Positions 23,994 through 60,602 of a stretch of 64,000 nt of DNA are shown piece by piece. The stretch spans positions 1,860,001-1,924,000 of the forward strand of contig NZ_CP054931.1 of the NCBI RefSeq assembly GCF_013364355.1. The letters run 5' to 3'. The DNA comes from Stenotrophomonas sp. NA06056. Its GTDB lineage: Bacteria > Pseudomonadota > Gammaproteobacteria > Xanthomonadales > Xanthomonadaceae. Numbering within the stretch: the first letter of the stretch is position 1; every line of letters starts with the position of its first letter. The notes beneath the pieces are model-generated. The model was not told where the DNA came from. It did no database searches and saw only the letters and a program-made list of their open reading frames with translations. The position numbers and the translations under genes were made by a program.

Positions 23994-24674
23994 GTGTTCT
24001 ACGTCAGGGGGCTGAATGGACACCATGCGGTCGGAACTTGGAAGGTGGCCATCGCCGCGTGGCTGCTGCTGTCCTTTGCCGCTGGCGCGCAGGACGGTGT
24101 TCATCCCTATGACATCCCTGCGCAGCCGCTGGAACAGGCGGTCGAGCGCTTCAGTGTCATCAGCGGGTGGTCGGTGATGTACCCGGGCGACCTTGCCGCA
24201 GGCCGCAGCAGCCATGCGCTGCGCGCCAGCCTGGCGCCGCTGCCTGCCTTGCAGGCGCTGTTGCAGGGCTCCGGTATCGAGGCCGAGGTGATCGGCGAAC
24301 AGCGTGTGGTGCTGCGCCGGGGCACGTCCTCCGTCGACGAACCCGGTGTCGGCGCCGAACTTCCCGAGGCCGAGCGTCGGCGTCGCTACGGCGGGCTGCA
24401 GCAGCGCCTGCGCGCAGTGTTCTGTGACGACCCGGAGATCGCGCCCGGCGGCTATGCCGCGACGCTGCGTTTCCATGTCGACAGCGAAGGCCAGGTGCAT
24501 GCACCCGAGCTGCTGTCAGGCAGTGGCAGCGCCCGTCGCGATGCACGCCTGCTGCAGGCGATGCAGGGCCTGGTGCTGGCGGCCGAGGCTGGCGCGCTGG
24601 CGCAGCCGGTAACGCTGCAGATCCGACCTTCCGGCACCGACCACGACTGTGGCCGGCGCGCGCCCCTTCCATGA
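23994..24674 (+). CDS. STN-domain signalling protein (VreA-like) with TonB-C-like end
   Basis: A 226-residue protein: hydrophobic signal segment (residues about 18-35), then an STN domain (YDIPAQPLEQAVERFSVISG through about residue 110), then a segment resembling a TonB C-terminal domain (LRFHVDSEGQVHAPELLSGS). There is no beta-barrel, so it is not a full TonB-dependent receptor. This is how I remember P. aeruginosa VreA, which signals to an anti-sigma factor. The two following genes are an ECF sigma factor and a FecR-like protein, as for VreI and VreR. The start is uncertain: I chose GTG 23994 with GAGGG at 23985-23989; GTG 24045 is an alternative. Confidence 0.8.
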   Translation: MFYVRGLNGHHAVGTWKVAIAAWLLLSFAAGAQDGVHPYDIPAQPLEQAVERFSVISGWSVMYPGDLAAGRSSHALRASLAPLPALQALLQGSGIEAEVIGEQRVVLRRGTSSVDEPGVGAELPEAERRRRYGGLQQRLRAVFCDDPEIAPGGYAATLRFHVDSEGQVHAPELLSGSGSARRDARLLQAMQGLVLAAEAGALAQPVTLQIRPSGTDHDCGRRAPLP

Positions 24675-24690
24675 CTTCAAGGATTCGAAC

Positions 24691-25221
24691 ATGAGCAACG
24701 GTACGGCTGGGGCAGTTGACCTGATGGACCACCTTCTGGGTGCCTACGATGAGCTGAAGCGCCGGCTGGTGCGCAAGCTGGGCTCGGAAGAGCTGGCCGG
24801 CGACGCGCTGCAGGACACCTGGATGCGCCTGAGCGCGCGTCGTGACCGCCTGGACGCCGTGCAGAACCCCGCGGCCTACCTGCTGCGCATGGCGATGAAT
24901 ACCGTGATCGACCGCCAACGTGCGGACCACCGCCTGCTGAGCCTGGAGGAGGTGGATACGCTGATGGACATGGCCGACCCGGCACCCGGCCCGGCGCAGG
25001 CGGCCGAACTGGACTTCGCGCTGGAAGACATGGTCGGCCTGCTGCAGCGCATGCCCGAGCGCCGTCGTAGCATCCTGCTGGCAATCCGCGTCGATGGCCT
25101 GCAGCAGCGCGACGTGGCCGACCACCTCGGCGTGTCGCTGCGGCTGGTACAGCGTGAGCTGAAGGCGGCCCAGGACTACCTGGCCGAGCGCAGCGGGCAG
25201 GGGCGCCAGGTGCGGTTCTGA
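24691..25221 (+). CDS. ECF-family RNA polymerase sigma factor (FecI/VreI-like)
   Basis: A 176-residue group IV sigma factor. Region 2 has DALQDTWMRLSARRD and NPAAYLLRMAMNTVIDRQR; region 4 has MPERRRSILLAIRVDGLQQR followed by a helix-turn-helix. It belongs to the FecI type controlled from the cell surface. ATG 24691 has AAGGA at 24679-24683; a longer in-frame form would start inside the upstream gene. The FecR-like partner is 69 bases downstream. Its likely targets are the T2SS and TPS genes of this island, by analogy with VreI. Confidence 0.9.
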   Translation: MSNGTAGAVDLMDHLLGAYDELKRRLVRKLGSEELAGDALQDTWMRLSARRDRLDAVQNPAAYLLRMAMNTVIDRQRADHRLLSLEEVDTLMDMADPAPGPAQAAELDFALEDMVGLLQRMPERRRSILLAIRVDGLQQRDVADHLGVSLRLVQRELKAAQDYLAERSGQGRQVRF

Positions 25222-25290
25222 GCGACGGCATCCGTCTACACTTTGACGCCGAGCAGAACCCCGCAGCGTGCGGGTCCGGCATGAGCCCCC

Positions 25291-26271
25291 ATGGATCCTG
25301 ACGATCGCCCGCAACGCCCGCTGGATGCCGTTGAGCGTCAGGCCCACGCGTGGGTGGTGCGGCTGACCTCGGGCGAGGCGACCGCCGCCGACGGGCGCAG
25401 GTTCCGTGCGTGGTGTGAGGCTGACCCGCGTCATCGCGAAGCGTTTGGCCGTGCGCGCCGGCAATGGGAGCAGGTACGCCTGGCCGGCGAGCAGCTGCCC
25501 GCCACCGCGCGCCAGCCGGTAGCGCCGACGCCGGCCCAGCGCTGGAGCCGACGCGCCTTCCTCGGCGCCGCGATTGCCGCGCCGGCCAGCCTGGTAGTGG
25601 TGGCGGCCATCCGCCCGCCGCTGGGGCTGTGGCCCTCGGTGACGGCCATGGCAGCCGATTTCCATACTGGCACCGGTGAGCGACTGCAGATCGCGCCCTC
25701 GCCGCAGCTGAAGATCGAACTGGATACGCAGAGCAGCCTGCGCCGCCGCGCGGACGCGCAGGGCGAAGGCTTCGAGCTGGTGCAGGGACAGGCTGCGATC
25801 GAGACCCTGGACGGCCTGCGCCTGGCGTTGTTCGCGGGCCCGGGCTGCGTGATTGCCGAGGAGGGAGCGGTGCGCCTGGACGTACGCAACACCCATGGCC
25901 AGGTGCGGGTGACCTGCCTGCATGGCAGCGCCCGCATCGAGCATCCGCAGGGCCGGCTGCAGCTACAGGCGGGCCAGCAGACCCAGTACGACGAGCGCCT
26001 CAGTGGCGTGGTCGCCGCGGCCGTGGCCTCGGAAGTGAGTGCCTGGACCGAGGGCATGCTGGTGTTCCGCCGCGCACCGCTGCGCGAGGTGGTGGAAGAG
26101 ATCAACCGTTACCGCCGCGGCAAGGTGCTGCTGGGAGAATCGGCGTTGGCGCGTGCTCCGGTCAGCGGCCGCTTCCGCATTGATGATCCGGATGCAGCGC
26201 TGGAGCAGCTGCGACTGACGATGTCGCTGGATCTGCGTCGCTTTCCGGGTGGCATTGCCGTCCTTGGATAG
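25291..26271 (+). CDS. FecR-family anti-sigma factor / transmembrane sensor (VreR-like)
   Basis: A 326-residue FecR-type protein. The cytoplasmic N-terminus (FRAWCEADPRHREAFGRARR) is the sigma-binding DUF4880-like part. One membrane segment lies near residues 90-113 (FLGAAIAAPASLVVVAAI). The periplasmic FecR domain contains GERLQIAPSPQLKIELDTQS and ends in an STN-facing C-terminal region (GRFRIDDPDAALEQL). It should hold the ECF factor until the STN protein signals. Confidence 0.88.
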   Translation: MDPDDRPQRPLDAVERQAHAWVVRLTSGEATAADGRRFRAWCEADPRHREAFGRARRQWEQVRLAGEQLPATARQPVAPTPAQRWSRRAFLGAAIAAPASLVVVAAIRPPLGLWPSVTAMAADFHTGTGERLQIAPSPQLKIELDTQSSLRRRADAQGEGFELVQGQAAIETLDGLRLALFAGPGCVIAEEGAVRLDVRNTHGQVRVTCLHGSARIEHPQGRLQLQAGQQTQYDERLSGVVAAAVASEVSAWTEGMLVFRRAPLREVVEEINRYRRGKVLLGESALARAPVSGRFRIDDPDAALEQLRLTMSLDLRRFPGGIAVLG

Positions 26272-26329
26272 ATGAAGACGCTGGCCGTGCGCACCGCGCA
26301 GGGCTGTTGCAAGCAAGGAGAGGCCAAGG

Positions 26330-26881
26330 ATGCGCAACGAGAACATCGGTGTGCTGGATCTGCGTCGCAATCTGTCGGCGCTGCTGGAAACCACGCAGCG
26401 ACGGCCGTTGATGGTGCATCGCTATGGCTCGCCATGGGTGTGCGTGGTGTCCGATGCGCAGTGGCAGCGACAGTCGGTGCTGCTGGATTTCGATCCGCAG
26501 TCGCACCCGCTGGCGATGCTGCTGCGCCTGCAGCAGCAGGCGCTTCCGCTGTCCGAAGCCGGTGCGTTGTCACCCGCGGTCCTCGCGCGCGCTCTGCTGT
26601 TGACGGGAGTTCATGGCATTGACGATCTGGCGCAGCTGCACGAGCAGGTGCTGCATCATCGACTGTGGCACTGGTTCGTGGCGGGTACCCACGGTGTGAT
26701 GGACAGCTGGCAATTGCCGGCGCTGCGCGCTGCGATGGGGTCATGGTGCGATGACGCGGAGATGACCGATGCACTGGCCGCGTTCGCTGCGCGCAGCGAT
26801 GTGGCGATACTGGCGCGCCGTTGCGGGGGCGAAGCACCGCGGCTGGAGCGCGAAGCCTGCAGGCAGATGACGCTGCGATGA
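26330..26881 (+). CDS. Phd/YefM-like N-terminal protein with transposase-like (DUF772) middle, copy 1
   Basis: A 183-residue protein with ribosome site AAGGAGAGG upstream. Residues about 5-46 look like a Phd/YefM antitoxin fold: IGVLDLRRNLSALLETTQRR, then PLMVHRYGSPWVCVVSDAQW. Residues about 88-137 resemble the N-terminal DUF772 region of IS5/IS1182 transposases, with LHHRLWHWFVAGTHGVMDSW matching that family's NLLFRWFVGL-WDHS pattern. No DDE catalytic domain and no toxin gene are nearby. It is paralogous to the next gene and shares the first motif with 60249-60602. From memory, P. aeruginosa has a Phd-named protein (PhdA) in the equivalent locus. A DNA-binding regulatory role is an inference. 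Confidence 0.72.
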   Translation: MRNENIGVLDLRRNLSALLETTQRRPLMVHRYGSPWVCVVSDAQWQRQSVLLDFDPQSHPLAMLLRLQQQALPLSEAGALSPAVLARALLLTGVHGIDDLAQLHEQVLHHRLWHWFVAGTHGVMDSWQLPALRAAMGSWCDDAEMTDALAAFAARSDVAILARRCGGEAPRLEREACRQMTLR

Positions 26882-27001
26882 CGTTGTCGATGAAGCGCAA
26901 CGCAGCGCACATACCTGCATGTGCGCTGTCGCTTCACCTGCCTTGCTGACGTCTTCTCCAGAGTACGGCGCAACACGCGTCGCGGAGCACGGGCGGCGCC
27001 G

Positions 27002-27586
27002 ATGGCAGACAGTCGCAGGATCAGCATGCTGGAGCTGGATCGTCACCTGAGCCAGTCACTGGAGCAGGCACGGCATACGCCATTGAACGTGCAGCGCTAT
27101 GGGCACTCCTGGGTCTGGGTGCTGTCCAGTGACGCTTGGGCAGATGCGGCGCGCTGGGCGGCACTGGATGGTAGTGCGCACCCACTGGTGGCGCTGCGAA
27201 AAGCCCTCGACCTGCAGCTGCGGCCCTGGCCCGAAGCGGCCATGAGCCCGCTGCCGCTTGATGCAGGTGATGCGCGGCTGCTGCAACGCGCGGCCCTGCT
27301 GGTGGTCGTGCGCGATCTGAACAGTGCCCAGCGCGTGTACGACGACCTGCGCTATCACCAGGCCTATCGGATGTTCATCGGCCTCGATCATGGAACGGCG
27401 TGGTCGCCGATGCAGTGCGTGCGGCTGCTGCAGGCCTGTGCGCACCCGTTGCTGCGCGGCTGCATCGACGATGCGCTGGCCAGCGTGCCGCGGTATCTGT
27501 TCGAGTCTGCATGTGCGCCGGCTGCACCTGTTGCGCCTGCACAGGCACACGCGCAGCGAATTGCCGGCGGATGTTTATCGTACTGA
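27002..27586 (+). CDS. Phd/YefM-like N-terminal protein with transposase-like middle, copy 2
   Basis: A 194-residue paralogue of the preceding gene. The N-terminus ISMLELDRHLSQSLEQARHT, followed by NVQRYGHSWVWVLSSDAW, aligns position by position with copy 1. The middle (YHQAYRMFIGLDHGTAWSPM) again follows the DUF772 pattern of transposase N-termini. The C-terminal 35 residues are Ala/Pro-rich. ATG 27002 is chosen because the conserved part begins directly after it; an in-frame ATG at 26921 would add an Arg-rich leader and cannot be excluded. There is no adjacent toxin. Confidence 0.68.
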   Translation: MADSRRISMLELDRHLSQSLEQARHTPLNVQRYGHSWVWVLSSDAWADAARWAALDGSAHPLVALRKALDLQLRPWPEAAMSPLPLDAGDARLLQRAALLVVVRDLNSAQRVYDDLRYHQAYRMFIGLDHGTAWSPMQCVRLLQACAHPLLRGCIDDALASVPRYLFESACAPAAPVAPAQAHAQRIAGGCLSY

Positions 27587-27643: not shown

Positions 27644-28081
27644 ATGGCAAGGCAGGTTCGTGGTCGCAGGGCTCGGCAGCAGGGTTTCAGCCTGATCGAG
27701 ATCATGGTGGTGGTGGTGATCATCGGCATCCTCGCCGCATTGATCGTGCCGCGGTTGATGGACCGTCCCGACCAGGCACGCGTGGTGGCGGCGCGCCAGG
27801 ACATCGCCGCACTGATGCAGGCATTGAAGCTGTTCAAGCTGGACAACGGTCGCTATCCCAGTGCCGAGCAGGGCCTGCAGGCACTGGTGAAGCCACCGCA
27901 GGGCGGTGGCGCGATGCCGGTCACGCCCTATCTGGATCGCCTGCCCAATGACCCGTGGGGCCATCCGTACCAGTATCAGATACCAGGTACCCACGGCGAC
28001 ATCGATGTGTTCTCGCTGGGTGCGGACAGCAAACCCGGTGGCGACGCCGGGAACGCGGACATCGGCTCCTGGCAGCTGTGA
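27644..28081 (+). CDS. gspG: type II secretion major pseudopilin GspG
   Basis: A 145-residue pseudopilin. The prepilin cleavage site G|FSLIEIMVVVVIIGILAAL lies at residues 14-15, after a basic leader. The C-terminal part has the GspG calcium-loop features YPSAEQGLQALV, NDPWGHPYQY and DVFSLGADSKPGG. It forms the T2SS pseudopilus in the periplasm. It is the first of seven co-directional gsp genes. Confidence 0.94.
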   Translation: MARQVRGRRARQQGFSLIEIMVVVVIIGILAALIVPRLMDRPDQARVVAARQDIAALMQALKLFKLDNGRYPSAEQGLQALVKPPQGGGAMPVTPYLDRLPNDPWGHPYQYQIPGTHGDIDVFSLGADSKPGGDAGNADIGSWQL

Positions 28082-28090: not shown

Positions 28091-28996
28091 ATGTCAGCCC
28101 TGATGCGTTCTGTTTCAAGTGCCCGTCAACGTGGCATGGCGGTGATCGTCGCCCTGCTGGTGGTGGCGCTGGTGGCGGTGATTGCCACGGCACTGCTGAC
28201 CCGGCAGTCGGCCCAGCTGCGCGCGCTGCGTGGCGACCAGCTACGCGCGCAGGTGCGTATGGCGGTGGACGCAACGCTGGAGCGTGCGGCGCAGCAGCTG
28301 CGTGAGGATGTAAAGGAACAGCTGACCACGGTGCGCAGCGGGCGCTGGGCCCGCCCATTGCAGCTGCAGGCGCCGTTGCCGGTGCGGCTGCAGCTCGTCG
28401 ATGCGCAGTCGATGTTCAACCTGCGGAACCTTCTGGCACATGGCAGGCCGGACCCCGAGGCGCGGCGCGCGTTCATCGCGTTGTGTGCCGGGCAGGGGCT
28501 GGGCCAGGGCGCCTGCACATCCGCCGCGGACCACATCCAGGCGCGCCTGCGCGATGGCGACATGCAGGCGCAGGCGCCGCTGCCCCGTGAATCACTGATC
28601 GAACAGGCGCTGGCCGGCGCTGACCCGGTAGCGCTGCAGGCGCTTGCACGGCGCACCGTGGTGCTGCCGGCGCAGACCCTGGTCAACGCCAACACCAGCG
28701 ACCTGCGCGTTCTGCAGGCGGTGACGCCTGCGGTCGAGCCGGCACGGCTGCAGGCGCTGCTCGGTGAGCGCGACGCTGGCCATTGGCTGCTCAATCGCGG
28801 CGACATCGCCAACCGACTCCAACTGAGCAACGAACAGATGGCGGTGCTTCCCTTGGGTATCCATAGCGAGTGGTTCCTGGCCGTCGGCCAGGTGCAGGCT
28901 GATGGCAGCGCGGTTGATTTTCGCGCGCTGCTCTGGCGCGAGTACCGCGACGATGGCGTGCGTGTGCAACGTGTGTGGACGAGGATCGGCGCATGA
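28091..28996 (+). CDS. gspK: type II secretion minor pseudopilin GspK
   Basis: A 301-residue tip pseudopilin. After a basic leader comes RGMAVIVALLVVALVAVIAT, in which the prepilin cleavage would leave Met-Ala-Val rather than the usual Phe start; GspK is also the pseudopilin lacking Glu+5. The NTSDLRVL segment and large C-terminal domain fit GspK (about 300-330 aa). Its stop overlaps the gspL start. In a reconstituted tip it would sit on GspI and GspJ, which are encoded far away on the other strand at 51.2-52.2 kb. Confidence 0.88.
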   Translation: MSALMRSVSSARQRGMAVIVALLVVALVAVIATALLTRQSAQLRALRGDQLRAQVRMAVDATLERAAQQLREDVKEQLTTVRSGRWARPLQLQAPLPVRLQLVDAQSMFNLRNLLAHGRPDPEARRAFIALCAGQGLGQGACTSAADHIQARLRDGDMQAQAPLPRESLIEQALAGADPVALQALARRTVVLPAQTLVNANTSDLRVLQAVTPAVEPARLQALLGERDAGHWLLNRGDIANRLQLSNEQMAVLPLGIHSEWFLAVGQVQADGSAVDFRALLWREYRDDGVRVQRVWTRIGA

Positions 28997-30156
28997 ACGT
29001 GCAGCTTCGCGTGCGCCTGCCGGCGCTTGAGCGTCTGCGCGCCGACAGCGCGGTGGACTGGGCGCAGCTGCACAAGGGCGAGGTGCTGGCTCACGGTCGC
29101 GACACACTGGCGGCGCTGGGCCTGCGGCATCCGCAGGCTGCGGTGCATGCCTGCCTCGATCCGAACGACCTGATCCTGCTGGAACTGCAGCTGCCACCGT
29201 TGTCGGGGCGCCGCCTGCAGTCGGCGCTGCAGGGTGAGGTGGAGGCGATGCTGCTGGATGACCTGCAGGAAGTCGCGTTGGCCCACGGCGCGCAGGCGAC
29301 GGACGGCGCGGTTCCTGTGGCCTGGCTGGGCCAGCAGGCGGTCCTGCAGGCGCAGCAGCTGCTGGCTTCGTGTGCACTGCGGCTGCAGGCGCTGTATCCG
29401 ACGCCGCTGCTGCTGCCCTGGCAGGACGGCCATGCCACGCTGCAGGTCAGCGGCGAGCACCTGCTGGTACGCAGCGGGCGCGATCGGGGTTTCGTTCAAT
29501 GGTATGGCGGACGTGATGCCTGTGCGGTGATGCAGGCGTTGGTTGTGCGCCTGCAACAGGCCGGCGTGCAGGCCGTGCAGTGGATCGATCGTGTGCCGCC
29601 GACGTGGCCGGACAGCCTGCCGGCCACCGCCATTCCGCATGAACGGCAGGCCTCTGGCCCCTTGCCAGGCTGGTCATTGCCGCTGCCCGGCGCGGGCCAG
29701 AAGGCGCCGCGGCTTGCGATCGGGCTGGCATTGGCGGCGGTGCTGCTGGCCGCGCTCGGTCTGCAGCTGCAGGTCTCGCGGTGGCGAAGTGAGGGCGAGA
29801 CCCTGCAACAGGACATGGCGCGCCAGTTCAGCGAACGCTTCCCGGAGATCACCGATGTGGTGGACCCGGTGTTGCAGGCAAGGCGAGCACTGGCCGTGCC
29901 ACTGCCGGCGCCGCCGTTGCCGCCGCTGCAGCGTCAGGTAGCCGGCACGCTGCAGGCGGTTCCGGAGCTGGCGGGACAGGTGCGCAGCCTGCATTACCAA
30001 CCCGGGCAACTGGAGATGGAGCTGGATGCCGACGCCCAGGCATTGGCCGATGATCCCCAGCGGCTTGAACACTGGCAGCAGGCAGTGCAGGCGAAGGGCC
30101 TGCAGTTGGCGCGCGAAGCCGGTGGGCGCCTGCGGGTGAGCGGAGCTGGACAGTGA
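28993..30156 (+). CDS. gspL: type II secretion inner-membrane protein GspL
   Basis: A 387-residue protein with a cytoplasmic actin-like domain (residues about 1-235), one membrane segment near residue 245 (GLALAAVLLAALGLQLQVSR) and a periplasmic ferredoxin-like end. GspL recruits the GspE ATPase to the inner-membrane platform. ATG 28993 overlaps the gspK stop as ATGA; an in-frame GTG 18 bases upstream is less likely. Confidence 0.88.
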   Translation: MNVQLRVRLPALERLRADSAVDWAQLHKGEVLAHGRDTLAALGLRHPQAAVHACLDPNDLILLELQLPPLSGRRLQSALQGEVEAMLLDDLQEVALAHGAQATDGAVPVAWLGQQAVLQAQQLLASCALRLQALYPTPLLLPWQDGHATLQVSGEHLLVRSGRDRGFVQWYGGRDACAVMQALVVRLQQAGVQAVQWIDRVPPTWPDSLPATAIPHERQASGPLPGWSLPLPGAGQKAPRLAIGLALAAVLLAALGLQLQVSRWRSEGETLQQDMARQFSERFPEITDVVDPVLQARRALAVPLPAPPLPPLQRQVAGTLQAVPELAGQVRSLHYQPGQLEMELDADAQALADDPQRLEHWQQAVQAKGLQLAREAGGRLRVSGAGQ

Positions 30157-30680
30157 CGACCCGAACCCTGCGGCTGGGCGAGGGAATGGCGGGCCTGCAG
30201 CAGCGCTGGCAACGCCTGCCACCGCGCGACCGGCTGATGCTGTGGGTGATGGTGGTGGCGCTGCTGGTGGCGGGTCTGTGGATGTTGTGGCTGGAGCCGC
30301 TGCTGAAGCAGCGCACGCACTGGCAGGCCGAGCTGCCGCGGCTGCAGGCGCAGGCGCGTGTCCTGGCGCCACTGCTGCAGGCGCGCGAGCGTCAGCAGCA
30401 GACGCAGGGGCAGCGCCCGACGATGGCCGGGTTGCGTGACGGAATCAAGTCGGCCGGCCTGGCCGACGGACTGCATATCGAAGCGCGCGACGGGCATTGG
30501 CACCTGCAGGTGCAGGCGGTGCCCGCTGACGCGCTGTGGAACTGGCTGCTGCCCGTGCTGGCCGATCCGGCCATCGAACTGCAGCAGCTGCAACTGACAC
30601 GCACAGGGGATGCGAACATGCCGGCGGCACGGATTTCCGGAAACATCGTGATGGCGCTCAACGTGGGTGCCCATCCATGA
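30153..30680 (+). CDS. gspM: type II secretion inner-membrane protein GspM
   Basis: A 175-residue bitopic protein: short basic N-terminus, one membrane segment (residues about 28-48, LMLWVMVVALLVAGLWMLWL), then a periplasmic ferredoxin-like domain. GspM pairs with GspL. It starts with GTG overlapping the gspL stop (GTGA) and its own stop overlaps gspD (ATGA). Confidence 0.87.
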   Translation: MTTRTLRLGEGMAGLQQRWQRLPPRDRLMLWVMVVALLVAGLWMLWLEPLLKQRTHWQAELPRLQAQARVLAPLLQARERQQQTQGQRPTMAGLRDGIKSAGLADGLHIEARDGHWHLQVQAVPADALWNWLLPVLADPAIELQQLQLTRTGDANMPAARISGNIVMALNVGAHP

Positions 30681-38437: not shown

Positions 38438-38568
38438 CATTGTGGCGAATGCTTTCTTGATGTCGGCTTCACGCCCGCAGCCTCGTCTAACAGGGGCAGG
38501 GCACCCATCGCCCCATCCATCAGACAGTGATGCGGCTGCGGCCGCCCAATCAGGTTGACGAGGTCCAG

Positions 38569-52627: not shown

Positions 52628-52730
52628 CGACGTTGCCTCCTGTCCAGGTCGATGCCTGCCAGCGTAGATCGGCATGATGAAACAAAAGCGTCAGCGGCAG
52701 CTGCTAGCGTGGGCAGACACGAACGTGGCG
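52628..52730. promoter_or_regulatory. divergent promoter region gspH / gspC
   Basis: The roughly 100 bases between the gspH ATG and the favoured gspC start contain TAGCGT-like -10 candidates: GCTAGCGT at 52704-52711 for gspC and, on the other strand, CTACGCT at 52663-52669 for gspH. Both are weak visual matches, so the assignment is tentative. Confidence 0.35.
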
Positions 52731-53292: not shown

Positions 53293-53622
53293 TCAGCGTG
53301 CCGGACGCTGCGGTATCACCGAACGACCAAAGGCATCGCCCATGCGCTGTCGCGTGCCTTCCAGGTTGTACTGCATCAGCTGGTTGCCGGGCTGCCGCAT
53401 CAGGCGCTCGGCTTCGGGGAGCGTCGGTGACTTCGCCGCTTTCGGTGGCGGCGCCAGCTTGCGTTGCAGGCAGTCCCAGGCCGGAATCCGCTCGCCGTTG
53501 ACCTGCACTTCAATGCAGGGCGCTGCATCTTCCTGCTTCTTCGCCTCGTCGGCGCGAACCGATGGCAGCAGCAGGGCAAGGGCGAGGGAAGCGCGCAGGC
53601 CCATCATCAACGATTCACGCAT
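53293..53622 (-). CDS. small periplasmic protein with a cysteine pair, unknown function
   Basis: A 109-residue protein with a signal peptide (MRESLMMGLRASLALALLLP, cleavage near VRA). The mature part contains two cysteines 14 apart, starting CIEVQVNGERIPAWDC, and an Arg/Gln-rich end. ATG 53622 has AGGAG seven bases upstream, so this is a real gene even though the same frame stays open into tpsB on the other strand. It is divergent from tpsB, across a region with a candidate Pho box. I do not recognise the family. A role in folding or export of the TPS or T2SS proteins is only suggested by position. Confidence 0.72.
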   Translation of the reverse strand: MRESLMMGLRASLALALLLPSVRADEAKKQEDAAPCIEVQVNGERIPAWDCLQRKLAPPPKAAKSPTLPEAERLMRQPGNQLMQYNLEGTRQRMGDAFGRSVIPQRPAR

Positions 53623-53720
53623 CCCGAATCTCCTGCAGCAAGCGATGTTCTGCAATGAAGACGTGTGGCGAAGGCAGGGTCCGCCTGCGGGTGTTGCGGC
53701 GCTGTCAAAAGATGACAGTG

Positions 53721-53738
53721 CTGTCACAAAACTGTTGG
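53721..53738 (+). promoter_or_regulatory. candidate Pho box upstream of tpsB
   Basis: CTGTCAC-AAAA-CTGTTGG matches the PhoB direct-repeat pattern (CTGTCAT-N4-CTGTCAT) at 10 of 14 positions. A further CTGTCA at 53702 forms a small inverted repeat with TGACAG at 53713-53718. It lies 77 bases before ATG 53815 and about 100 bases before the divergent small gene. P. aeruginosa's equivalent locus responds to phosphate starvation, so the site is plausible. Confidence 0.5.
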
Positions 53739-53814: not shown

Positions 53815-55446
53815 ATGCCTTCGATGAACCCTGTTCCGTGCCGAGCCGTCCGCCTTCCGCTGCGCCTGCATCCGTTGATGCTGGCCCTGGCAGCGCTGCC
53901 GCTGCCGCTGTTCGCGCAGGAGGCAGCGCCTGCGCCCAGCGTGAACATCAATGAATACATCGTGCGTGGCAACACCGTGCTCGATCCACGCGACATTGAA
54001 CGCGCGGTGGAGCCGTTCCTCGGCCCGGGCAAGACCCTGGCCGATGTCGAGAAGGCGCGCGATGCGGTTCACGCGCTGTACCAGCAGGCCGGCTACCAGT
54101 CGGTCTATGTCGAGCTTCCCGAGCAGCAGGTCAGTGGCGGCGTGGTGCTGCTGAAGGTGCAGCAGACGCCGATCGGCCAGCTGCGGGTCGTGGGCACGAA
54201 GCATGAATCGCCCGAACGCATCCGCGATCGCGTACCGGCACTGGCCGAGGGCAAGGTGCCCGACTTCGACCAGGCACAGAAGGAACTGACTGCGCTGAAC
54301 GAAGGGGGCCGCCGCCAGGTGATGCCGCTGGTGCGCGAGGGCCAGGTGCCGGGCACCATGGATGTGGATCTGCAGGTGGAAGAGAAATCGCCCTGGCGGG
54401 CCAGTGCGGCGCTCAACAACGACCACAGCGCCGATACCGAGAAGCTGCGGCTGAGTGCATCGCTGGCCCATGACAACCTGTGGCGGCGTGGGCACAGCGC
54501 GAGCATCGGCGTGTTCATCGCGCCGGAAGACATGGACCAGGCAAAGGTGTTCTCTGCCTCCTACACGGTGCCCTTCGAGGGCACGCCGTGGAGCCTGGAG
54601 GCCTCGGGCTACAAATCCGACAGCCGCGTACTCAATGCTGGTGGTCAAGGCGGTGCAGGCACGGGTACCGGCACCAATGTGATCGGTAACGGTCATTCGA
54701 TCGGCCTCAAGCTCAACTACCGCCTGCCCGGCAGCGGTGCCTGGTGGCGACAGCTCAGCCTCGGCGTGGACTTCAAGGACACCGAAGAAGACACGCAGAT
54801 GGGCAAGGACAGCCTGAAAACGCCACTGAAGTATGCGCCGATCACGCTGGCCTTCGTCGGCGTGCGCCAGGGCGAGAGCGATCAGCTGAGCATCAACACC
54901 CAGCTGGTGGCTGGCACCCGCCGCCTGTTCGGCTACGGCAGCGACGCCATTGCCTTCGACCAGAAGCGCTACTGGGCCGACCCGAGTTTCGTGGCCTTCA
55001 AGGCCGATGTGGCCAACACCCACACCTTCGGCAGCGACTGGCAGTGGTACGCACGCGGCTCGCTGCAGGTCACCGATGCGCCCCTGGTGTCGGCCGAGCA
55101 GTTCGCCGCCGGTGGCATGTACACCGTGCGTGGCTACCTGTCGGCCGAGGCGATCGGCGACTACGGCGGACTGGCCAACCTCGAATGGCGCACCCCGGCG
55201 TGGTCGCTGTGGAGCGGTACCGACCTGCGCCTGTACAGCTTCGCGGACGCGGCCTACCTGCGCCTGCGCCAGCCGCTGCCGGAACAGCGCGACAAGTACA
55301 ACCTGGCCTCGGTCGGGCTGGGCGCGCAACTGCGCCTGGGCGAACACCTGCAGCTGCGCCTGGACTACGCCTGGCCCTACGCCGACGGCCCGGTCACGCG
55401 CAAGGACGACCCGCGCCTGCATTTCAACATCAGCACCAGCTACTGA
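53815..55446 (+). CDS. two-partner-secretion outer-membrane transporter TpsB (PdtB-like)
   Basis: A 543-residue Omp85-superfamily transporter. After a signal peptide (LMLALAALPLPLFAQ) come two POTRA domains (YIVRGNTVLDPRDIERAVEP; PIGQLRVVGTKHESPERIRD) and a 16-strand barrel. The conserved L6-loop motif appears in GGMYTVRGYLSAE, and the last residue is the aromatic Tyr. It should thread the TpsA protein encoded upstream through the outer membrane. ATG 53824 is an alternative start. It leads a rightward unit of exbB, exbD, tonB and porin. Confidence 0.93.
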   Translation: MPSMNPVPCRAVRLPLRLHPLMLALAALPLPLFAQEAAPAPSVNINEYIVRGNTVLDPRDIERAVEPFLGPGKTLADVEKARDAVHALYQQAGYQSVYVELPEQQVSGGVVLLKVQQTPIGQLRVVGTKHESPERIRDRVPALAEGKVPDFDQAQKELTALNEGGRRQVMPLVREGQVPGTMDVDLQVEEKSPWRASAALNNDHSADTEKLRLSASLAHDNLWRRGHSASIGVFIAPEDMDQAKVFSASYTVPFEGTPWSLEASGYKSDSRVLNAGGQGGAGTGTGTNVIGNGHSIGLKLNYRLPGSGAWWRQLSLGVDFKDTEEDTQMGKDSLKTPLKYAPITLAFVGVRQGESDQLSINTQLVAGTRRLFGYGSDAIAFDQKRYWADPSFVAFKADVANTHTFGSDWQWYARGSLQVTDAPLVSAEQFAAGGMYTVRGYLSAEAIGDYGGLANLEWRTPAWSLWSGTDLRLYSFADAAYLRLRQPLPEQRDKYNLASVGLGAQLRLGEHLQLRLDYAWPYADGPVTRKDDPRLHFNISTSY

Positions 55447-55483: not shown

Positions 55484-57268
55484 ATGGACCGTCTGCTTTC
55501 CCGAATGTTGCTGCTGCTGGTTGCGCTGATCGCGCTGCCCGCCGCCGCGGCCGATGCCAACTGGTGGCAGGCCGAATGGAAGTACCGCAAGCCGATCACC
55601 GTCGACGCCGGCCCACAGGGTGCGGGGTTGGCCGGTAACCCCGGGCGTACACCGCTGCTGCTGCGCCTGCATACCGGCAACTTCGGTTTTGATGGCACCC
55701 AGGAGGGCGGCAATGACCTGCGCTTCGTTTCTGCTGACGGACGCACCGTGCTGGCCCATCAGATCGAACAGTTCGACCCGAACCTGGGCCTGGCCCTGGT
55801 CTGGGTGGACGTGCCGGCACTGACCGCCAGCGCGCCGCAGACAATCTGGATGTACTACGGCAACCCAAAGGCACCGGCCAGCGGCAATGGCCAGCAGGTG
55901 TTCGATCCGGACTACACGCTGGTCTACCACTTTGCCGAAGCCAATGCGCCGGCGCGTGATACCACGGCCTACGGCAACACGGCCGGCGCGGTTGTGACCG
56001 CAGCGGAAAGCACGGTGATCGGGCGTGGCGTGCAGCTCGGGACCGGCCCCCTGCCGCTGCCGGCCAGCGCTTCGCTGGCACAGGAAGCGGGCGCGCCGCT
56101 CACCGTTTCGGCCTGGATCAAGCCGGGCGCGCTGACCACCGCGCAGGCGATCTATGCCCGGCGTGATGGCAGTGCCGAGCTGGTGGTGGGTATCGACAAC
56201 CGTGTGCCGTTCGTGCAGCTCAACGGCCAGCGCAGTACGCCGGCACAGCCAATTCCGGAAGGACAGTGGGCGCATCTTGCGCTTACCGCCGAGAAGGGTT
56301 CGTTGCAGCTGTACCTGAACGGTCGCGTGGTGGCCCAGCTCAGTGGTGAACTGCCGGCACTGACGACCGCAGCGGTGGTGGGTGCCGACGCACCGGGTGC
56401 GACGCAGCCGCTGGCCAACTTCGATGGCGCGCTGGATGAACTGCGGGTCTCACGCGTCGCGCGCCCGGCGGCACTGCTGTTGGCCGATGCCACCGCGCAG
56501 GGCGCCGACTCGCGCCTGATCAGCTACGGTGCCGACGAGCAATCGGCGGGGCAGAGCCACTTCGCCTTCATCCTCAAGGCGATGCCATTCGACGCCTGGG
56601 TGGTGGTCGCCATCCTTGGCCTGATGATGCTGCTGTCGTGGGCGATCATGATCGCCAAGGGGCGCCACTTCGGTCGAACCAGCAAGGCCAATGCAGTGTT
56701 CACCGAGAGCTTCAGCAAGCTTTCCGGCGTGCCGCTGCGCACCTTGTCCGAGATGAACCAGCAGGGGAAGGTGCCGACGGCGATGCACGACGGTTCGCTG
56801 TGGCGCATCTACCAGGTCGCCATCGATGAAATGCAGCAGCGCCATCAGCGCGACGGCAACTCCGGCTACCTGAGCGCGGCCACCATCGCGGCCATTCGCG
56901 CGTCGATGGACGCGGTGATGGTGCGCGAACAGGAGGCGATGGCGCGGCGCATGAACTGGCTGTCGACCACCATCGAGGGCGCACCGTATGTCGGCCTCTT
57001 CGGCACCGTGATCGGCATCATGCTGGTGTTCGTGGTGGCGGCGATGGCCGGTGCGGTGGACATCAACTCGGTGGCCCCGGGCATGGCGGCAGCGCTGCTG
57101 TGTACGGCAGCCGGCCTGGGCGTCGCGATTCCGGCGCTGTTCGGCTACAACTGGCTGGGCGCACGCGCCGAAGCGATCGGTGCCGACATGGCGGTGTTCA
57201 TCGACGAGTTCGCCGCCCGCCTGGCCGAAGAGCAGGACGGGCGCGGCCCGGCCGCGGTCCAGGGCTGA
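55484..57268 (+). CDS. exbB: ExbB/TolQ-type proton channel fused to DUF2341 and LamG-like domains
   Basis: A 594-residue fusion. A signal peptide (MLLLLVALIALPAAAADA) is followed by a DUF2341-like domain (residues about 30-130, with WVDVPAL and QTIWMYYGNPKA), then a LamG/ConA-like jelly-roll (about 145-330, with PLTVSAWIKPGAL, GQWAHLALTAEKGSLQLYLN and FDGALDELRVSRVA). From about residue 366 it is ExbB: membrane segment AWVVVAILGLMMLLSWAIMI, then GLFGTVIGIMLVFVVAAMAG and AALLCTAAGLGVAIPALFGY. The channel would have a large periplasmic, possibly glycan-binding, head. ATG 55484 has GGAG at 55471-55474; ATG 55460 is possible. Confidence 0.9.
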   Translation: MDRLLSRMLLLLVALIALPAAAADANWWQAEWKYRKPITVDAGPQGAGLAGNPGRTPLLLRLHTGNFGFDGTQEGGNDLRFVSADGRTVLAHQIEQFDPNLGLALVWVDVPALTASAPQTIWMYYGNPKAPASGNGQQVFDPDYTLVYHFAEANAPARDTTAYGNTAGAVVTAAESTVIGRGVQLGTGPLPLPASASLAQEAGAPLTVSAWIKPGALTTAQAIYARRDGSAELVVGIDNRVPFVQLNGQRSTPAQPIPEGQWAHLALTAEKGSLQLYLNGRVVAQLSGELPALTTAAVVGADAPGATQPLANFDGALDELRVSRVARPAALLLADATAQGADSRLISYGADEQSAGQSHFAFILKAMPFDAWVVVAILGLMMLLSWAIMIAKGRHFGRTSKANAVFTESFSKLSGVPLRTLSEMNQQGKVPTAMHDGSLWRIYQVAIDEMQQRHQRDGNSGYLSAATIAAIRASMDAVMVREQEAMARRMNWLSTTIEGAPYVGLFGTVIGIMLVFVVAAMAGAVDINSVAPGMAAALLCTAAGLGVAIPALFGYNWLGARAEAIGADMAVFIDEFAARLAEEQDGRGPAAVQG

Positions 57269-57277: not shown

Positions 57278-57691
57278 ATGGCCTACAAGGCGAAGTTCGG
57301 CATCAAGAAGCGCGAGAAGGGCATCAATGTGACGCCCTTCGTCGACGTGCTGCTGGTGGTGCTGGTGATCTTCATTCTTACCAGCAACGCCTCCATTCCC
57401 GGCATCGAGGTCAACCTGCCGAAGGCCAGCAACAGCACCGCACTGGAGAAGCCCAAGACCAAGGCCATCACCATCGACCCCAGCGGCCAGGTGTTCCTGG
57501 ATGCCTACCCGGTGACGATGGCCGAGCTGGAAGACCGCCTGCGTACCGAACGTGCGACCTCACCGGATTTCCCGGTGATCGTGCGAGGTGACGCGCAGGT
57601 GCAGTACGCCCGCGTGGTCGAGGTGCTGGACCTGCTGCGGCGGCTGGAGCTGGCCCAGGTCGGCCTCGTTACCGGCAAGGCGCAGGGCTGA
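57278..57691 (+). CDS. exbD: ExbD proton-channel subunit
   Basis: A 137-residue bitopic protein: KREKGINVTPFVDVLLVVLV carries the membrane Asp that conducts protons, and the periplasmic domain has PVIVRGDAQVQYARVVEVLD. It pairs with the ExbB fusion nine bases upstream. Confidence 0.94.
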   Translation: MAYKAKFGIKKREKGINVTPFVDVLLVVLVIFILTSNASIPGIEVNLPKASNSTALEKPKTKAITIDPSGQVFLDAYPVTMAELEDRLRTERATSPDFPVIVRGDAQVQYARVVEVLDLLRRLELAQVGLVTGKAQG

Positions 57692-57694: not shown

Positions 57695-58393
57695 ATGGCC
57701 GGTCATCGACCACCCCTGCAGGAGCCGGGTACGCGCGGACGCCAGCTGCTGGTGACGATCGCGCTGGTGCTGGCGGCGCTGCTGGTACTGGGTATCGCCG
57801 TGTGGTGGCTGCTGTTCAAGGACACCGCCAGCACCCGCCGACCGGTGGTACAGCCGCCGATGCTGGCGTTGCCACCACCCCCGCCACCCCCGCCGCCACC
57901 GGAAAAGCCGCCCGAGCCGGAGACGCCGCCGGAAGAGACCGTGCCTGAGCCGGAACCGCTGGACCAGCCAACACCGGCGGAGGAACCAACACCGACGCCG
58001 GACAACGCCGACCCGGTAACCATGGACGCCGATGCGCAGGCCGGTGGGGACAACTTCGGCATCCAGTCGGGCAGCGGTGGTGGCGCGTCCGGTGTGGGCC
58101 GTGGCGGTGCCGACAATGCCAGCTATGGCCGCTACCTGGGCTATCTGATGCAGCAGGCGATTTCGCGCGATGCGCGGGTCAAGCGCCTGGCATTCCAGCT
58201 GCAGGTGAATGTGTGGTTGGCGCCGGACGGCCGGCTGGAGAAGGTCGAGCTGGTGCGTGGCAGCGGCAACGAGGAGGCCGATGTGGCCGTGCTCGAAGCG
58301 CTGCGGCAGATCGGCAAAGTCGACCAGATGCCACCGGCGTCGCTGGATTTCCCCGCGCGCGTGCTGATCCAGGGGCGTCGCCCCGGCGCCTGA
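57695..58393 (+). CDS. tonB: TonB-like energy transducer
   Basis: A 232-residue protein with an N-terminal membrane anchor (residues about 18-41), a proline/glutamate-rich spacer (about 50-105, including ten consecutive prolines) and a C-terminal TonB fold (LAFQLQVNVWLAPDGRLEKV, then VLEALRQIGKVDQMPP). It completes an ExbB-ExbD-TonB set. The only receptor-like partners in the island are the STN protein at 23994 and the porin, since no TonB-dependent barrel is encoded here. The Gly-rich linker near residues 115-135 is unusual. Confidence 0.87.
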   Translation: MAGHRPPLQEPGTRGRQLLVTIALVLAALLVLGIAVWWLLFKDTASTRRPVVQPPMLALPPPPPPPPPPEKPPEPETPPEETVPEPEPLDQPTPAEEPTPTPDNADPVTMDADAQAGGDNFGIQSGSGGGASGVGRGGADNASYGRYLGYLMQQAISRDARVKRLAFQLQVNVWLAPDGRLEKVELVRGSGNEEADVAVLEALRQIGKVDQMPPASLDFPARVLIQGRRPGA

Positions 58394-58396
58394 CCG

Positions 58397-60175
58397 ATGA
58401 CTTCCGTGATTTCCCTCTTTTCGATGAGAACCGTGATGAACGACCACGACCGCGCTCGAACCGCATCCCGCCGCCCGCGGCCTGCCCGACGGGCGCTGCT
58501 GTGCTGCGCCGTACTGCTCAGCCTGACCGTGCCGGCCACTGTGATGGCTGCCGAAACCACCATGGTCAAGCTCATCAAGGGCCTGATTGCCAGTGGCGCA
58601 CTGAAGCCCGAAGACGGCCAGGCTCTGCTGGTTCAGGCCGAAGCAGAGGCGGCGGTTGCGCAACACGGCACCGCGGGCGGCACAGCCAGCAGCGGCGGTG
58701 TGGCGCTGGAGGCGGGCGACGTGCGTGTGCCCTACGTGCCGCAGAGCGTGCGCGACGGCATTCGTGACGAAGTGCGCCAGGACGTGATGGCGCAGGCCAA
58801 GTCCGAGGGCTGGGCGGCACCGAACGAAGTGGCGGAATGGACCAAACGCATCAAGGTCACCGGCGACATGCGTGTGCGCAGCGAATCGCGCTTCTACTCC
58901 GAGCGCAACAGCGACATCGAAACCAACTGGGCCTCGGTGAACTCAGGCAGCGGCTTCGATACCAACAACAACACCAACCTGCAGCTGCCGCCGCTGCTCA
59001 ACACCCGCCAGGACCGCCGCAACCTGTGGCGTATCCGTGCACGGCTGGGCATCGAAGCGATGATCGGCGAGCACACCACTGCGGGCGTGCGCTTGGCCAG
59101 CGGCAGCAGCAACGGGCCGGTGTCCACCACCGAGCAGCTTGGCGGCGGCCTGGGCAAGAAGGACGTGTGGCTGGACCAGGCATGGCTGGCCTACAGCCCG
59201 GCCGACTGGGTGACGGTGCGCGGCGGACGCTTCGGCAATCCGTTCTGGACCAGCGACACGCTGTTCTCCAACGACCTGAACTTCGACGGCTTGGCCGCAA
59301 ATCTCAGCTACGACATCGCCGACGACATCGGCCTGTTCGGCACTCTGGCGGTGGTCCCGTTGGAGTACACCTCCGACAGCGCTCCCAGCCAGAGCCGGGT
59401 GAAGACGCCCAACGAGAACAAGTGGCTGTCCGGTGCACAGGTGGGGGTGAATTGGCGCTTCAACGATGACAACAGCCTGCGTGCGGCACTGGGCTACTAC
59501 GATTTCAAGAACATCAGCGGCCGCCTGTCGTCGCCGTGCGCGCTGTACGCAGGTGAGGTCGCTTGCGATACCGACTGGTCGCGGCCGGCGTTCATGCAGA
59601 AGGGCAACACCCTGATGCTGATCCGCGACATCGCCCGCAATCCGCTGGATCCGGCCAACACGCCCACGCCGCAGTACGTGGGCCTGGCCTCGGCGTTCCG
59701 CCTGGCGACCTTCAACCTGCGCTGGGATACACAGCTTGCGCAGGACATCGGCATGCGCCTGGATGCGGACTACATCCGCAACCTGGCCTATGACAAGCAG
59801 GCCATGTTCGCCAGGGCCAACAACGGCATCGTCAACAACTACGGTGCCGGTGGCAGCGCCAGCATCGATACCTTCCGCAGCGGCGACACCGCCTGGATGC
59901 TGCAGGCCACCTTCGGTGCCACCGAGCTGAAGGAGAAGGGCCAGTGGCAGGCCCTGCTGGGCTACAAGCGGATCGAGGCCGATGCACTGCCCGATGCCTA
60001 CAACGATCCGAACTTCCACCTGGGTGGTACCAATGCGCGCGGTTACTACGTGGGCGGCGCCTATGCGCTGGATGCACGCAGCTGGATCAGCGGCAAGTGG
60101 ATGGCGGCCAAGGAAGTGTCGGGCCCGCCGTTGTCGATCGACGTGTTCCAGCTGGAGTTCAATACCGGTTTCTGA
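58397..60175 (+). CDS. putative outer-membrane porin
   Basis: A 592-residue protein. The signal peptide is late (RRALLCCAVLLSLTVPATVM, cleavage after AMAA or nearby). A short helical region (MVKLIKGLIASGALKPEDGQ, about residues 55-100) precedes a beta-barrel rich in Tyr, Trp and Gly that ends in Phe (FNTGF). It looks like the putative porin family (Porin_5-like) with a short periplasmic helix. It is the last gene of the tpsB-exbB-exbD-tonB run; a role in uptake of a substrate released by the secreted proteins is inferred. The start could be ATG 58424 or 58436 instead. Confidence 0.82.
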   Translation: MTSVISLFSMRTVMNDHDRARTASRRPRPARRALLCCAVLLSLTVPATVMAAETTMVKLIKGLIASGALKPEDGQALLVQAEAEAAVAQHGTAGGTASSGGVALEAGDVRVPYVPQSVRDGIRDEVRQDVMAQAKSEGWAAPNEVAEWTKRIKVTGDMRVRSESRFYSERNSDIETNWASVNSGSGFDTNNNTNLQLPPLLNTRQDRRNLWRIRARLGIEAMIGEHTTAGVRLASGSSNGPVSTTEQLGGGLGKKDVWLDQAWLAYSPADWVTVRGGRFGNPFWTSDTLFSNDLNFDGLAANLSYDIADDIGLFGTLAVVPLEYTSDSAPSQSRVKTPNENKWLSGAQVGVNWRFNDDNSLRAALGYYDFKNISGRLSSPCALYAGEVACDTDWSRPAFMQKGNTLMLIRDIARNPLDPANTPTPQYVGLASAFRLATFNLRWDTQLAQDIGMRLDADYIRNLAYDKQAMFARANNGIVNNYGAGGSASIDTFRSGDTAWMLQATFGATELKEKGQWQALLGYKRIEADALPDAYNDPNFHLGGTNARGYYVGGAYALDARSWISGKWMAAKEVSGPPLSIDVFQLEFNTGF

Positions 60176-60248
60176 TCGGACAGCGTGATCGCAGTCACAG
60201 CATGCGTGGCGGAGGCGCGGCGACGCGCCCGTCTAAGGAAAGGAGACC

Positions 60249-60602
60249 ATGCGTTGCACACAGGAGGAGTGGATGAGCCGTCGCAAGCTGTTCGAGAGTT
60301 CCGAGCCCACTGCACAGGCACTGGGCATCGGGCCGGCCTATGTGTCGGTGGAGGGGCTGCGCCAGCACCTGGCCGAGTTCCTGCTGTATGCAGGGCGACC
60401 GGTGGTCATCATGCGCGGGCGCAGCGAGGTTGGCTATTTCCTGCCGGCACGCTGCTGGCGCCAGCGTGAGGATGACCCGCTGGCTGCCGCCGCGGCCGAT
60501 CAGCTGCTCGATGCCGCCGGCTTCCAGGCTGACGACATCCAGCAGGTCGAACAGGAGTTCAACGCAATGCGCCAGCGCACCGTGCTGCATTCACGGCGGT
60601 AA
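60249..60602 (+). CDS. Phd/YefM-like small protein, third copy in the island
   Basis: A 117-residue protein with ribosome site AAGGAGA. Residues about 32-70 (YVSVEGLRQHLAEFLLYAG, PVVIMRGRSEVGYFLPARCW) follow the same pattern as the N-termini of the proteins at 26330 and 27002: strand, helix with LR-x2-L, then two strands ending in Trp. It lacks the transposase-like middle of those two. No toxin gene is adjacent. Together the three copies bracket the T2SS-TPS island. Confidence 0.72.
   Translation: MRCTQEEWMSRRKLFESSEPTAQALGIGPAYVSVEGLRQHLAEFLLYAGRPVVIMRGRSEVGYFLPARCWRQREDDPLAAAAADQLLDAAGFQADDIQQVEQEFNAMRQRTVLHSRR

Follow-up and report, generated by a model that had tools for sequence, protein, structure and literature searches.

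Does an island in which a type II secretion system (T2SS), two DING proteins, a giant two-partner-secretion (TPS) exoprotein and a set of Ton genes stand side by side serve a single function, or does it hold separable units under one control? We address this question for positions 23994–60602 of a 64-kb window (64,000 nucleotides; C1:1860001–1924000, contig NZ_CP054931.1) of the 4.52-Mb single-contig genome of Stenotrophomonas sp. NA06056. The island is the Stenotrophomonas member of the known Vre/PUMA3-Hxc-Pdt locus of Pseudomonas aeruginosa. As an explanation of the whole, we propose with moderate confidence that it combines two modules under one switch. One is a core of TPS, motor and porin genes that is complete in itself in today's genomes; the other consists of the T2SS and DING genes, which look like a phosphate-specific add-on to this TPS–proton-motor unit.

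Genes were called by comparing Pfam and NCBIfam profile scores with the family cut-offs and, for the DING proteins, against solved structures (Table 1). The island opens with genes for a VreA-like regulator, an extracytoplasmic-function (ECF) sigma factor, a FecR-type regulator and two Phd/DUF772-like proteins, followed by gspG-K-L-M-D-E-F, two DING genes and tpsA. On the 3′ side of tpsA lie gspJ-I-H (minus strand), gspC, the gene of a small secreted protein (minus strand), the series tpsB-exbB-exbD-tonB-porin and a last small gene. Every gene named in an earlier note, made from the letters of this DNA, was recovered at its place, with Pfam or NCBIfam profiles or, for DING, solved structures, GspC, GspJ and the STN domain only below the Pfam cut-off. 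Its remark that there is almost no unrelated gene also holds, the open reading frames (ORFs) that it did not list being 26330–26881, 27002–27586, 53293–53622 (minus strand) and 60249–60602.

P. aeruginosa PAO1 was compared through its published PA0674–PA0701 gene list, and sequences were compared with other Pseudomonas and Achromobacter genomes. In P. canadensis, the order is small protein, vreA, ECF, FecR, gspJ/H/I, gspG-K-L-M-D-E-F, DING and tpsA, continued by Phd-like, tpsB, exbB, exbD, tonB and porin genes, with identities to the window of 30–71%. Long runs are collinear with the window, while gspH/I/J, the small-protein gene and the Phd gene stand at other positions; a single DING gene is present and gspC was not detected. 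The matches thus lie together and largely in the same order, not scattered among unrelated loci, which bears out the kinship to the Pseudomonas locus suggested earlier. P. abyssi and Achromobacter pestifer carry the same genes in other orders, the latter with four DING-type genes. Retention of the gene content despite rearrangement points to a functional tie. In P. neuropathica, the T2SS-DING-tpsA part is found on one contig and Phd-tpsB-exbB-exbD-tonB-porin on another, which speaks against a strict one. When other genomes with the module were searched whole, an hxc-type gspD (58–61% identity) was found in 6 of 11 and none in the other 5; the same six are those with DING matches above 130 bits.

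The same genome carries a second island at approximately 4.208–4.231 Mb (L014/L015; C1 4200001–4240000), in the order small protein, vreA, ECF, FecR, tpsA, tpsB, exbB, exbD, tonB, porin. Its proteins are 33% (VreA) to 86% (ExbD) identical to those of the island in the window (island 1), and none of the T2SS, DING or Phd1/2 proteins of island 1 has a match in it. Rhs-like proteins, recognised by eye, lie upstream of this second island.

Across the genus, hxc-type gspD (at least 78% identity), DING and island-1 exbB (69–100%) occur in the identical 28 of 61 genomes, a count that includes two fragmentary assemblies (G224, G213) and one genome with interrupted genes (G237). Since the three markers are physically linked, this shared distribution shows joint gain or loss, not cooperation. 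In G237 (C1:164461–189655), gspD is interrupted and exbB contains a stop, by apparent decay or assembly error. In three further genomes of the 61 (G205, G209, G226), exbB is of the second kind only, with the ten core genes at the locus; their best gspD match reaches 29–31%, and no DING match was found in them. Together with the T2SS-free second island, they indicate that the ten-gene core now occurs as a complete set on its own. An island that is one indivisible functional unit was rejected on these grounds. The earlier proposal that both secretion machines share a single function with a proton-driven complex is unsupported as stated: motor, TPS and porin also stand alone there, five of the eleven other module genomes are without hxc-type gspD, and the halves are on different contigs in P. 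neuropathica. The joint presence or absence of the three markers within the genus agrees with the earlier suggestion that the unit has been kept or moved together.

How far the core extends was examined in 80 loci, the best 80 of at least 569 relatives of the ExbB fusion in named genomes, chosen for ExbB likeness. Profiles were built in this analysis, and flanks of at most 10 kb make the neighbour counts lower bounds. The loci belong to Alpha-, Beta- and Gammaproteobacteria, Anaeromyxobacter (Myxococcota) and Verrucomicrobiota; one is labelled Bacillus subtilis, probably a mislabelled assembly. Among them, exbD is found in 80, tpsB and tonB in 79 each and the porin gene in 78. In 79 loci tpsB lies directly 5′ of exbB, and the strict order tpsB-exbB-exbD-tonB-porin is seen in 74. 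Three of the remaining six are cut by contig ends (L079, L084, L155), and three keep the order and fail the spacing rule only (L116, L139, L151). Also in view are ECF and FecR genes together in at least 24 loci, Phd-like genes in at least 25, gspD in at least 4 and DING genes in at least 2; a VreA_STN count of 77 is inflated by the TonB-like end and was not used. The small secreted protein, whose cysteine pair is conserved in the aligned rows, has relatives in at least 30 of the 80 loci and at the second island.

Two genome samples, which share some genomes, point in the same direction. In the class sample of 185 genomes, DUF3739, which marks the end of TpsA, occurs in 12 and DUF2341 in 18, and all 12 are within those 18; near full-length Porin_5 occurs in 13 (any match in 24), again all within the 18 (Fisher p < 1e-14 for these overlaps, not corrected for kinship). 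In the phylum sample of 299 genomes, DUF3739 is found in 9, DUF2341 in 8 and both in 8. In addition, nine distant gammaproteobacterial loci with several of the genes were collected from the class sample (G010, G021, G036, G091, G107, G119, G136, G150, G156; the fragments G101 and G070 were excluded). All nine contain tpsA, tpsB, exbB, exbD and porin genes, and tonB is detected by BLAST in seven. The families are thus associated throughout, whereas the compact order of five genes is a trait of the nearer relatives. What the analysis shows directly is the gene content, its modular inheritance and the togetherness of the core across phyla.

The core has the hallmarks of two-partner (type Vb) secretion, with an N-terminal TPS domain in TpsA and POTRA_2 and ShlB domains in TpsB. 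The ExbB fusion is composed of a signal peptide (by eye), DUF2341, a LamG lectin-like domain and the channel, whose nearest solved structures are TolQ (4.7e-30) and then ExbB (1.4e-21); its closest named relative among the matches listed, from S. geniculata, is 93% identical and has the same neighbours. ExbD supplies the membrane aspartate of an ExbBD/TolQR pair, D23, which is present in at least 90% of 81 aligned rows. The rod protein combines a proline-rich region with a terminus resembling that of TonB/TolA. In the predicted structure of the porin, a 16-stranded barrel is preceded by helices, and the nearest fold is OmpM1. Between the N-terminal helices lies a V-x-Y-x-P motif; in an alignment of 38 porins ranging from Stenotrophomonas to Verrucomicrobiota, its Tyr never varies and its Val and Pro are retained in 90% or more. 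The segment may be where the rod makes contact, or may belong to a trimer stalk. When solved structures were searched with a profile of the porin, no credible sequence match came up (best E 0.27). OmpM attachment porins carry an SLH wall-binding domain before the barrel. Porin_5 is the only Pfam match of the island porin up to E 0.1, and its identification as an OmpM was rejected, as only the barrel fold agrees and no SLH match is found.

From these parts we propose that TpsB would export the giant TpsA, while the lectin-tagged ExbB/TolQ-like channel and ExbD would convert the proton gradient into movement of the TonB/TolA-like rod. The target of the rod in the outer membrane would most probably be the OmpM-like porin and, through it, the display of TpsA by TpsB. 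We infer the substrates, the use of protons and the partner of the rod; the motor would act on porin and TPS together, or energise TPS display.

T2SS genes also appear beside the core far from Stenotrophomonas. T2SS-like genes adjoin it in 3 of the 9 distant loci (G107, G119, G021), and in a Spartobacteria locus (L149) gspD, gspE and gspF lie directly before tpsB. In G119, a second DUF2341-ExbB, ExbD and TonB set lies 3′ of gspD-E-F with one ORF between. A set placed in this way, with no tpsB, is seen at L064:10447–18894 of a distant gammaproteobacterium, where the motor may pair with a T2SS alone. A T2SS-like secretin preceded by TPR repeats adjoins the TPS module in G107 (L056:7079–9205). 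In five distant loci (G107, G119, G021, G156, G091), a binding-protein-like protein of about 490–610 residues is encoded beside tpsB or tpsA. These neighbours of about 500 residues apparently belong to the phosphate-binding-protein superfamily, as suggested by an hhalign probability of 81%, a Pfam match below cut-off in one of three scanned and a match to 4ecf (E 0.0016); an AlphaFold2 model of one has a pLDDT of 33.7, and L058:5860–7287, which did not align, was excluded from the alignment. At L056 (12487–13956), L069 (5306–6832) and L064 (6211–7872), the secreted binding-protein-like family of about 500 residues lies beside tpsB, next to a protein of about 270–350 residues with a PEP-CTERM motif (above cut-off in two of three scanned). 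In Lysobacter changpingensis (L129), a DING-type match, weak at 43 bits, accompanies the module, a Phd3-like gene lies 3′ of the porin, and the best secretin match in that genome is only 30% identical.

The recurrence of T2SS genes and binding proteins favours cooperating machines; T2SS genes are common, however, and may also lie there by chance. In a more far-reaching explanation, tpsB, lectin-tagged ExbB/TolQ, ExbD, rod and OmpM-like porin would form one machine, a distinct proton-powered branch of two-partner secretion reaching from Pseudomonadota to Verrucomicrobiota that draws on the proton gradient of the inner membrane to export, stretch, retain or release giant DUF3739 exoproteins, with a T2SS and DING or other binding proteins as one of several cargo kits. 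We regard this only as a tentative extension of the two-module explanation and clearly less probable than it.

The switch proposed for the two modules is taken from P. aeruginosa, where it has been shown. Low phosphate would act through PhoB on the vreA-sigma-antisigma operon, and the sigma factor together with PhoB would then transcribe the remaining island genes. In P. aeruginosa, PhoB is reported to be needed for the vreA promoter, and PhoB with σVreI for the pdtA and phdA promoters; the transcript from the phdA promoter reads through pdtB, exbB2D2, tonB4 and PA0696–PA0701 (PMC4971064). σVreI controls hxc, lapA, pdtA-B, exbB2D2 and PA0696 (PMC2729926, PMC7035377), and low phosphate raises Hxc, LapA, LapB, PdtA, VreI and PA0696 (PMC9769906). 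The statement in the earlier note that joint working is not established therefore no longer applies to joint control and low-phosphate co-induction, which are published (PMC4971064, PMC9769906); it stands for the machines themselves, for whose cooperation no report was found in the literature searched, chiefly non-subscription journals. In the window, both domain halves of the VreA-like protein are recognised, below the Pfam cut-offs, with ECF and FecR genes adjoining it that score above theirs.

The PHO box has the consensus CTGTCAY-N4-CTGTCAY, scored here over 14 positions. Two candidate PHO-box-like repeats precede island genes. The core GTCATCGCAATGACA of the repeat 5′ of the vreA-like gene is kept in 9 of 10 genus islands, as is the repeat in the tpsB promoter, which overlaps a minus-strand 12/14 match at 53712–53729; the exception in both cases is G187, the most distant of the ten. 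The candidate sigma-dependent promoter element 5′ of tpsA, proposed from its sequence, lies in an aligned block that is recognisable also in the genus islands without its exact form, and the sequence 5′ of the first DING gene is strongly conserved in all ten, G187 included. Similar PHO-box-like repeats lie before tpsA and between the small-protein gene and vreA in four of four islands of the second type, and the pst promoter of this genome has a 12/14 match. A search of the genome with at most two mismatches gave 21 matches, whereas its reversed control gave 5; all 21 lie outside the window. A score of 11/14 is reached by 13 of 278 window segments of 230 bp and by 2 of 7 island intergenic regions. 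Phosphate control of the island is likely by homology; the motif does not prove it, and the PHO-box evidence is suggestive only.

In the add-on module, the 11-gene Hxc-type T2SS (GspC and GspJ being weak matches) would export the two DING proteins, which would bind or release phosphate outside the cell. GspD is of the hxc and not the Xps type: it shares 52–61% identity with copies from Pseudomonas and Achromobacter genomes that carry DING close by and only 29% with the genome's other listed T2SS secretin. A review counts eleven genes in either T2SS locus, GSP or XPS, of S. maltophilia K279a (PMC11089167). The island T2SS would correspond to the Gsp locus, a match by published gene number and not by K279a sequence. 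The review passages on S. maltophilia tie its named T2SS cargo to Xps, and hxcQ-W genes are listed in the 2025 description of a Stenotrophomonas species (PMC12367676). LapA and LapB are described as thought to be Hxc cargo (PMC9769906). Both DING proteins match solved DING structures over their whole length (5jk4, 5j1d, 2q9t, 4f18), which places DING genes beside the T2SS; their phosphatase role is predicted. DING proteins characteristically begin, when mature, with DINGGG; the first island protein begins with VNGGGASLP, and the family was set by the whole sequence, not by this motif. The genome's other two DING matches above cut-off form a separate pair at 2.80 Mb. Extra DING genes outside the island are seen in G185, G189 and G235.

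Several observations weigh against the two-module explanation. On the regulatory side, PHO-box matches with three mismatches in the window number 4 against 4.45 expected, not above chance, the regions upstream of the first DING gene and of tpsA reach only 9 of 14 positions, and G187 has neither conserved box. The mature start of the second DING protein is IKGAGSAVP and not DINGGG. As to the core, one genome of the phylum sample (G526) has two DUF3739 matches and no DUF2341, and not all DUF2341 matches are ExbB fusions. In the distant loci, tpsB directly precedes exbB in only 1 of 9 (G091); most run tpsB-tpsA-exbB-exbD-tonB-porin, in G136 some 25 kb separate tpsA from the exbB block, which is on the opposite strand, and the block of G010 lies before tpsB, kilobases away, with the porin far behind. 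This looser order slightly lowers our confidence. The N-terminal helices of the porin may serve trimerisation or attachment instead of rod docking, and an energising role of the Ton genes is only predicted. Finally, P. aeruginosa single mutants of tpsA, tpsB, the tonB homologue and PA0696 are reported to match the wild type in virulence towards zebrafish embryos when sigma expression is forced (PMC2729926).

The virulence of these mutants fits a simpler account in which the island is a regulon only: PhoB and the sigma factor would control genes that serve at low phosphate, and TPS, Ton and T2SS would not be mechanically coupled. The shared control in P. aeruginosa (PMC4971064) and the separation of the modules in the second island and in P. 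neuropathica agree with it as well. It explains the T2SS with DING well, but not the togetherness of tpsB-exbB-exbD-tonB-porin from Pseudomonadota to Verrucomicrobiota. Moreover, the module often stands without the sigma/FecR pair within flanks limited to about 10 kb, and we consider this account improbable. We hold about as unlikely an uptake system, in which Ton genes and porin drive active import of phosphate or phosphate esters freed by DING, the porin being opened by a proton-driven pull, while TPS is a separate adhesin under the same switch. TPS is hardly a bystander, given tpsB directly before exbB in 79 of 80 loci and DUF3739 tracking DUF2341 in the 185 and 299 genomes; the module also occurs without DING or hxc, and the porin fold gives no phosphate hint, since OprP ranks below many general porins. 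A Tol-Pal-like brace, in which a TolQ-like channel and a TolA-like rod, together with the OmpM-like porin, would anchor the outer membrane to the wall at the TpsA exit, is similarly doubtful, no wall-binding domain being found among the Pfam matches of the porin.

The kind of locus is already known from P. aeruginosa and from PUMA3 clusters of other species: clusters with TPS, ExbBD and PA0696 homologues were described in 2009 in P. fluorescens, P. entomophila, B. vietnamiensis, R. palustris and Janthinobacterium (PMC2729926). Among the papers listed in the literature searched, we found the link between DUF2341-ExbB and TPS only in P. aeruginosa papers and in this PUMA3 remark; none described how widespread and independent the TPS-motor-porin block is, the twin island without T2SS or the two-cysteine protein. 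DUF2341 is named in a 2025 survey among channel appendages of unknown function (PMC12505986), and exbB2-exbD2-tonB4 of P. aeruginosa is called a still-uncharacterised putative TonB system (PMC7035377). The paired islands of one genome, with and without T2SS and DING, offer a ready comparison that separates the phosphate part from the motor part, and DING proteins are suggested as cargo of the second S. maltophilia T2SS (Gsp), if the island is the Gsp locus. To our knowledge, two-partner secretion is usually regarded as needing no energy source at the outer membrane. A cross-phylum block that couples TpsB to a full proton motor and a porin makes this assumption testable.

The coordinates of all features are collected in Table 1. 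Upstream of the island, a 12-base repeat (AGCAACAGCCGA) with 9.8 perfect copies (23376–23492) lies between the island and a gene at 22839–23303 that is Lrp/AsnC-like by eye. No Rfam family reaches its gathering score in the 64-kb window.

Table 1 Genes and candidate promoter elements of the island, with the evidence for each assignment (positions in the window)
Feature	Position	Strand	Evidence
Candidate PHO-box-like direct repeat, 5′ of vreA-like gene	23875–23892	+	11/14 positions
VreA-like regulator	23994–24674	+	STN 18 bits and TonB_2 15.7 bits, both below cut-off; FecA N-terminus 5.2e-8; no barrel
ECF sigma factor (VreI-like)	24691–25221	+	Sigma70_r2 and r4_2 above cut-off; 37 bits; start codon chosen, ORF opens at 24649
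FecR-type regulator (VreR-like)	25291–26271	+	DUF4880 52.7 bits, FecR 32.1 bits
Phd/DUF772-like protein 1 (PhdA-like)	26330–26881	+	Weak: DUF772 E 0.0086, Phd_YefM E 0.12, both below cut-off
Phd/DUF772-like protein 2	27002–27586	+	Weak: DUF772 E 0.087; 34% identity to the protein directly 5′ of tpsB in P. canadensis
GspG major pseudopilin	27644–28081	+	T2SSG 132.9 bits
GspK	28091–28996	+	NCBIfam T2SS_GspK equivalog 169 bits (cut-off 130)
GspL	28975–30156	+	T2SSL, GspL_C
GspM	30153–30680	+	T2SSM 70 bits
GspD secretin, hxc type	30677–33058	+	Secretin 168 bits
GspE ATPase	33055–34488	+	T2SSE 488 bits
GspF	34496–35695	+	T2SSF 204.8 bits
DING-family phosphate-binding protein/phosphatase 1 (predicted)	35966–37150	+	551 bits to 5jk4, 246 bits to 2q9t 'DING'
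DING-family protein 2	37251–38378	+	331 bits to 5jk4, 206 bits to 2q9t
Candidate sigma-dependent promoter element, TGTCGGC-N16-CGTCT type, 5′ of tpsA	38461–38488	+	Exact form in 6/10 genus islands
TpsA giant exoprotein, 4,126 aa	38569–50949	+	TPS domain 93 bits (E 2.8e-26), DUF3739 135 bits (2e-39); ORF opens at 38527
GspJ minor pseudopilin	51211–51840	-	N_methyl 36.8 bits; T2SSJ 19.5 bits, below cut-off 28; position
GspI minor pseudopilin	51822–52184	-	T2SSI 27.2 bits, above cut-off
GspH minor pseudopilin	52181–52675	-	GspH 28 bits, above cut-off
GspC (short)	52674–53192	+	T2SSC 18.8 bits, below cut-off 27; position
Small secreted protein, two conserved cysteines	53293–53622	-	No Pfam match; relatives at other loci
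Candidate PHO-box-like repeat CTGTCAC-AAAA-CTGTTGG, tpsB promoter	53721–53738	+	11/14 positions, A4 spacer
TpsB outer-membrane transporter	53815–55446	+	ShlB 83 bits, POTRA_2 58 bits
DUF2341-LamG-ExbB fusion	55484–57268	+	MotA_ExbB 93.7 bits, DUF2341 73.1 bits, Laminin_G_3 68.6 bits
ExbD	57278–57691	+	102 bits
TonB/TolA-like protein	57695–58393	+	TonB_2 32.5 bits, above cut-off; TolA-like 30 bits, below its cut-off
Porin_5	58397–60175	+	615 bits; helices precede a predicted 16-stranded barrel
Small protein, Phd/YefM-like by eye only	60249–60602	+	No Pfam match (scanned from 60273)

Comparison with known systems places the island closest to the P. aeruginosa Vre/PUMA3-Hxc-Lap-Pdt-ExbBD2-TonB4-PA0696 locus, which by its published list holds the same kinds of gene: vreA, the sigma factor, the FecR-type regulator, the Hxc T2SS, LapA/LapB, PdtA/PdtB, the Phd protein, exbB2-exbD2-tonB4 and the putative porin PA0696. 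As in loci of this kind, the giant TpsA stands in the window together with TpsB, ExbBD, TonB and a porin, and VreA of P. aeruginosa is described with the same two-domain build, an STN domain and a TolA/TonB-like end with no barrel (PMC2729926). The window differs in the position of gspHIJ and gspC between tpsA and tpsB and in the extra two-cysteine gene. A Phd-type gene between tpsA and tpsB, as in P. canadensis, was not found in the window, where the Phd-like genes lie at 26330–27586; a profile built from the first of them finds relatives directly 5′ of tpsB in Pseudomonas loci. Unlike the position in P. aeruginosa, a third Phd-like gene (by eye) lies 3′ of the porin, and this small gene is present there in all nine other island-1 loci examined.

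For the porin, the barrel fold agrees with that of OmpM1 of Veillonella parvula, at 18% identity. The motor resembles TolQR-TolA and ExbBD-TonB in its channel, in the membrane aspartate of ExbD and in a rod with a TonB/TolA end. Unlike the Tol and Ton motors, it carries DUF2341 and a LamG domain before the channel and is genetically tied to TpsB and the porin.

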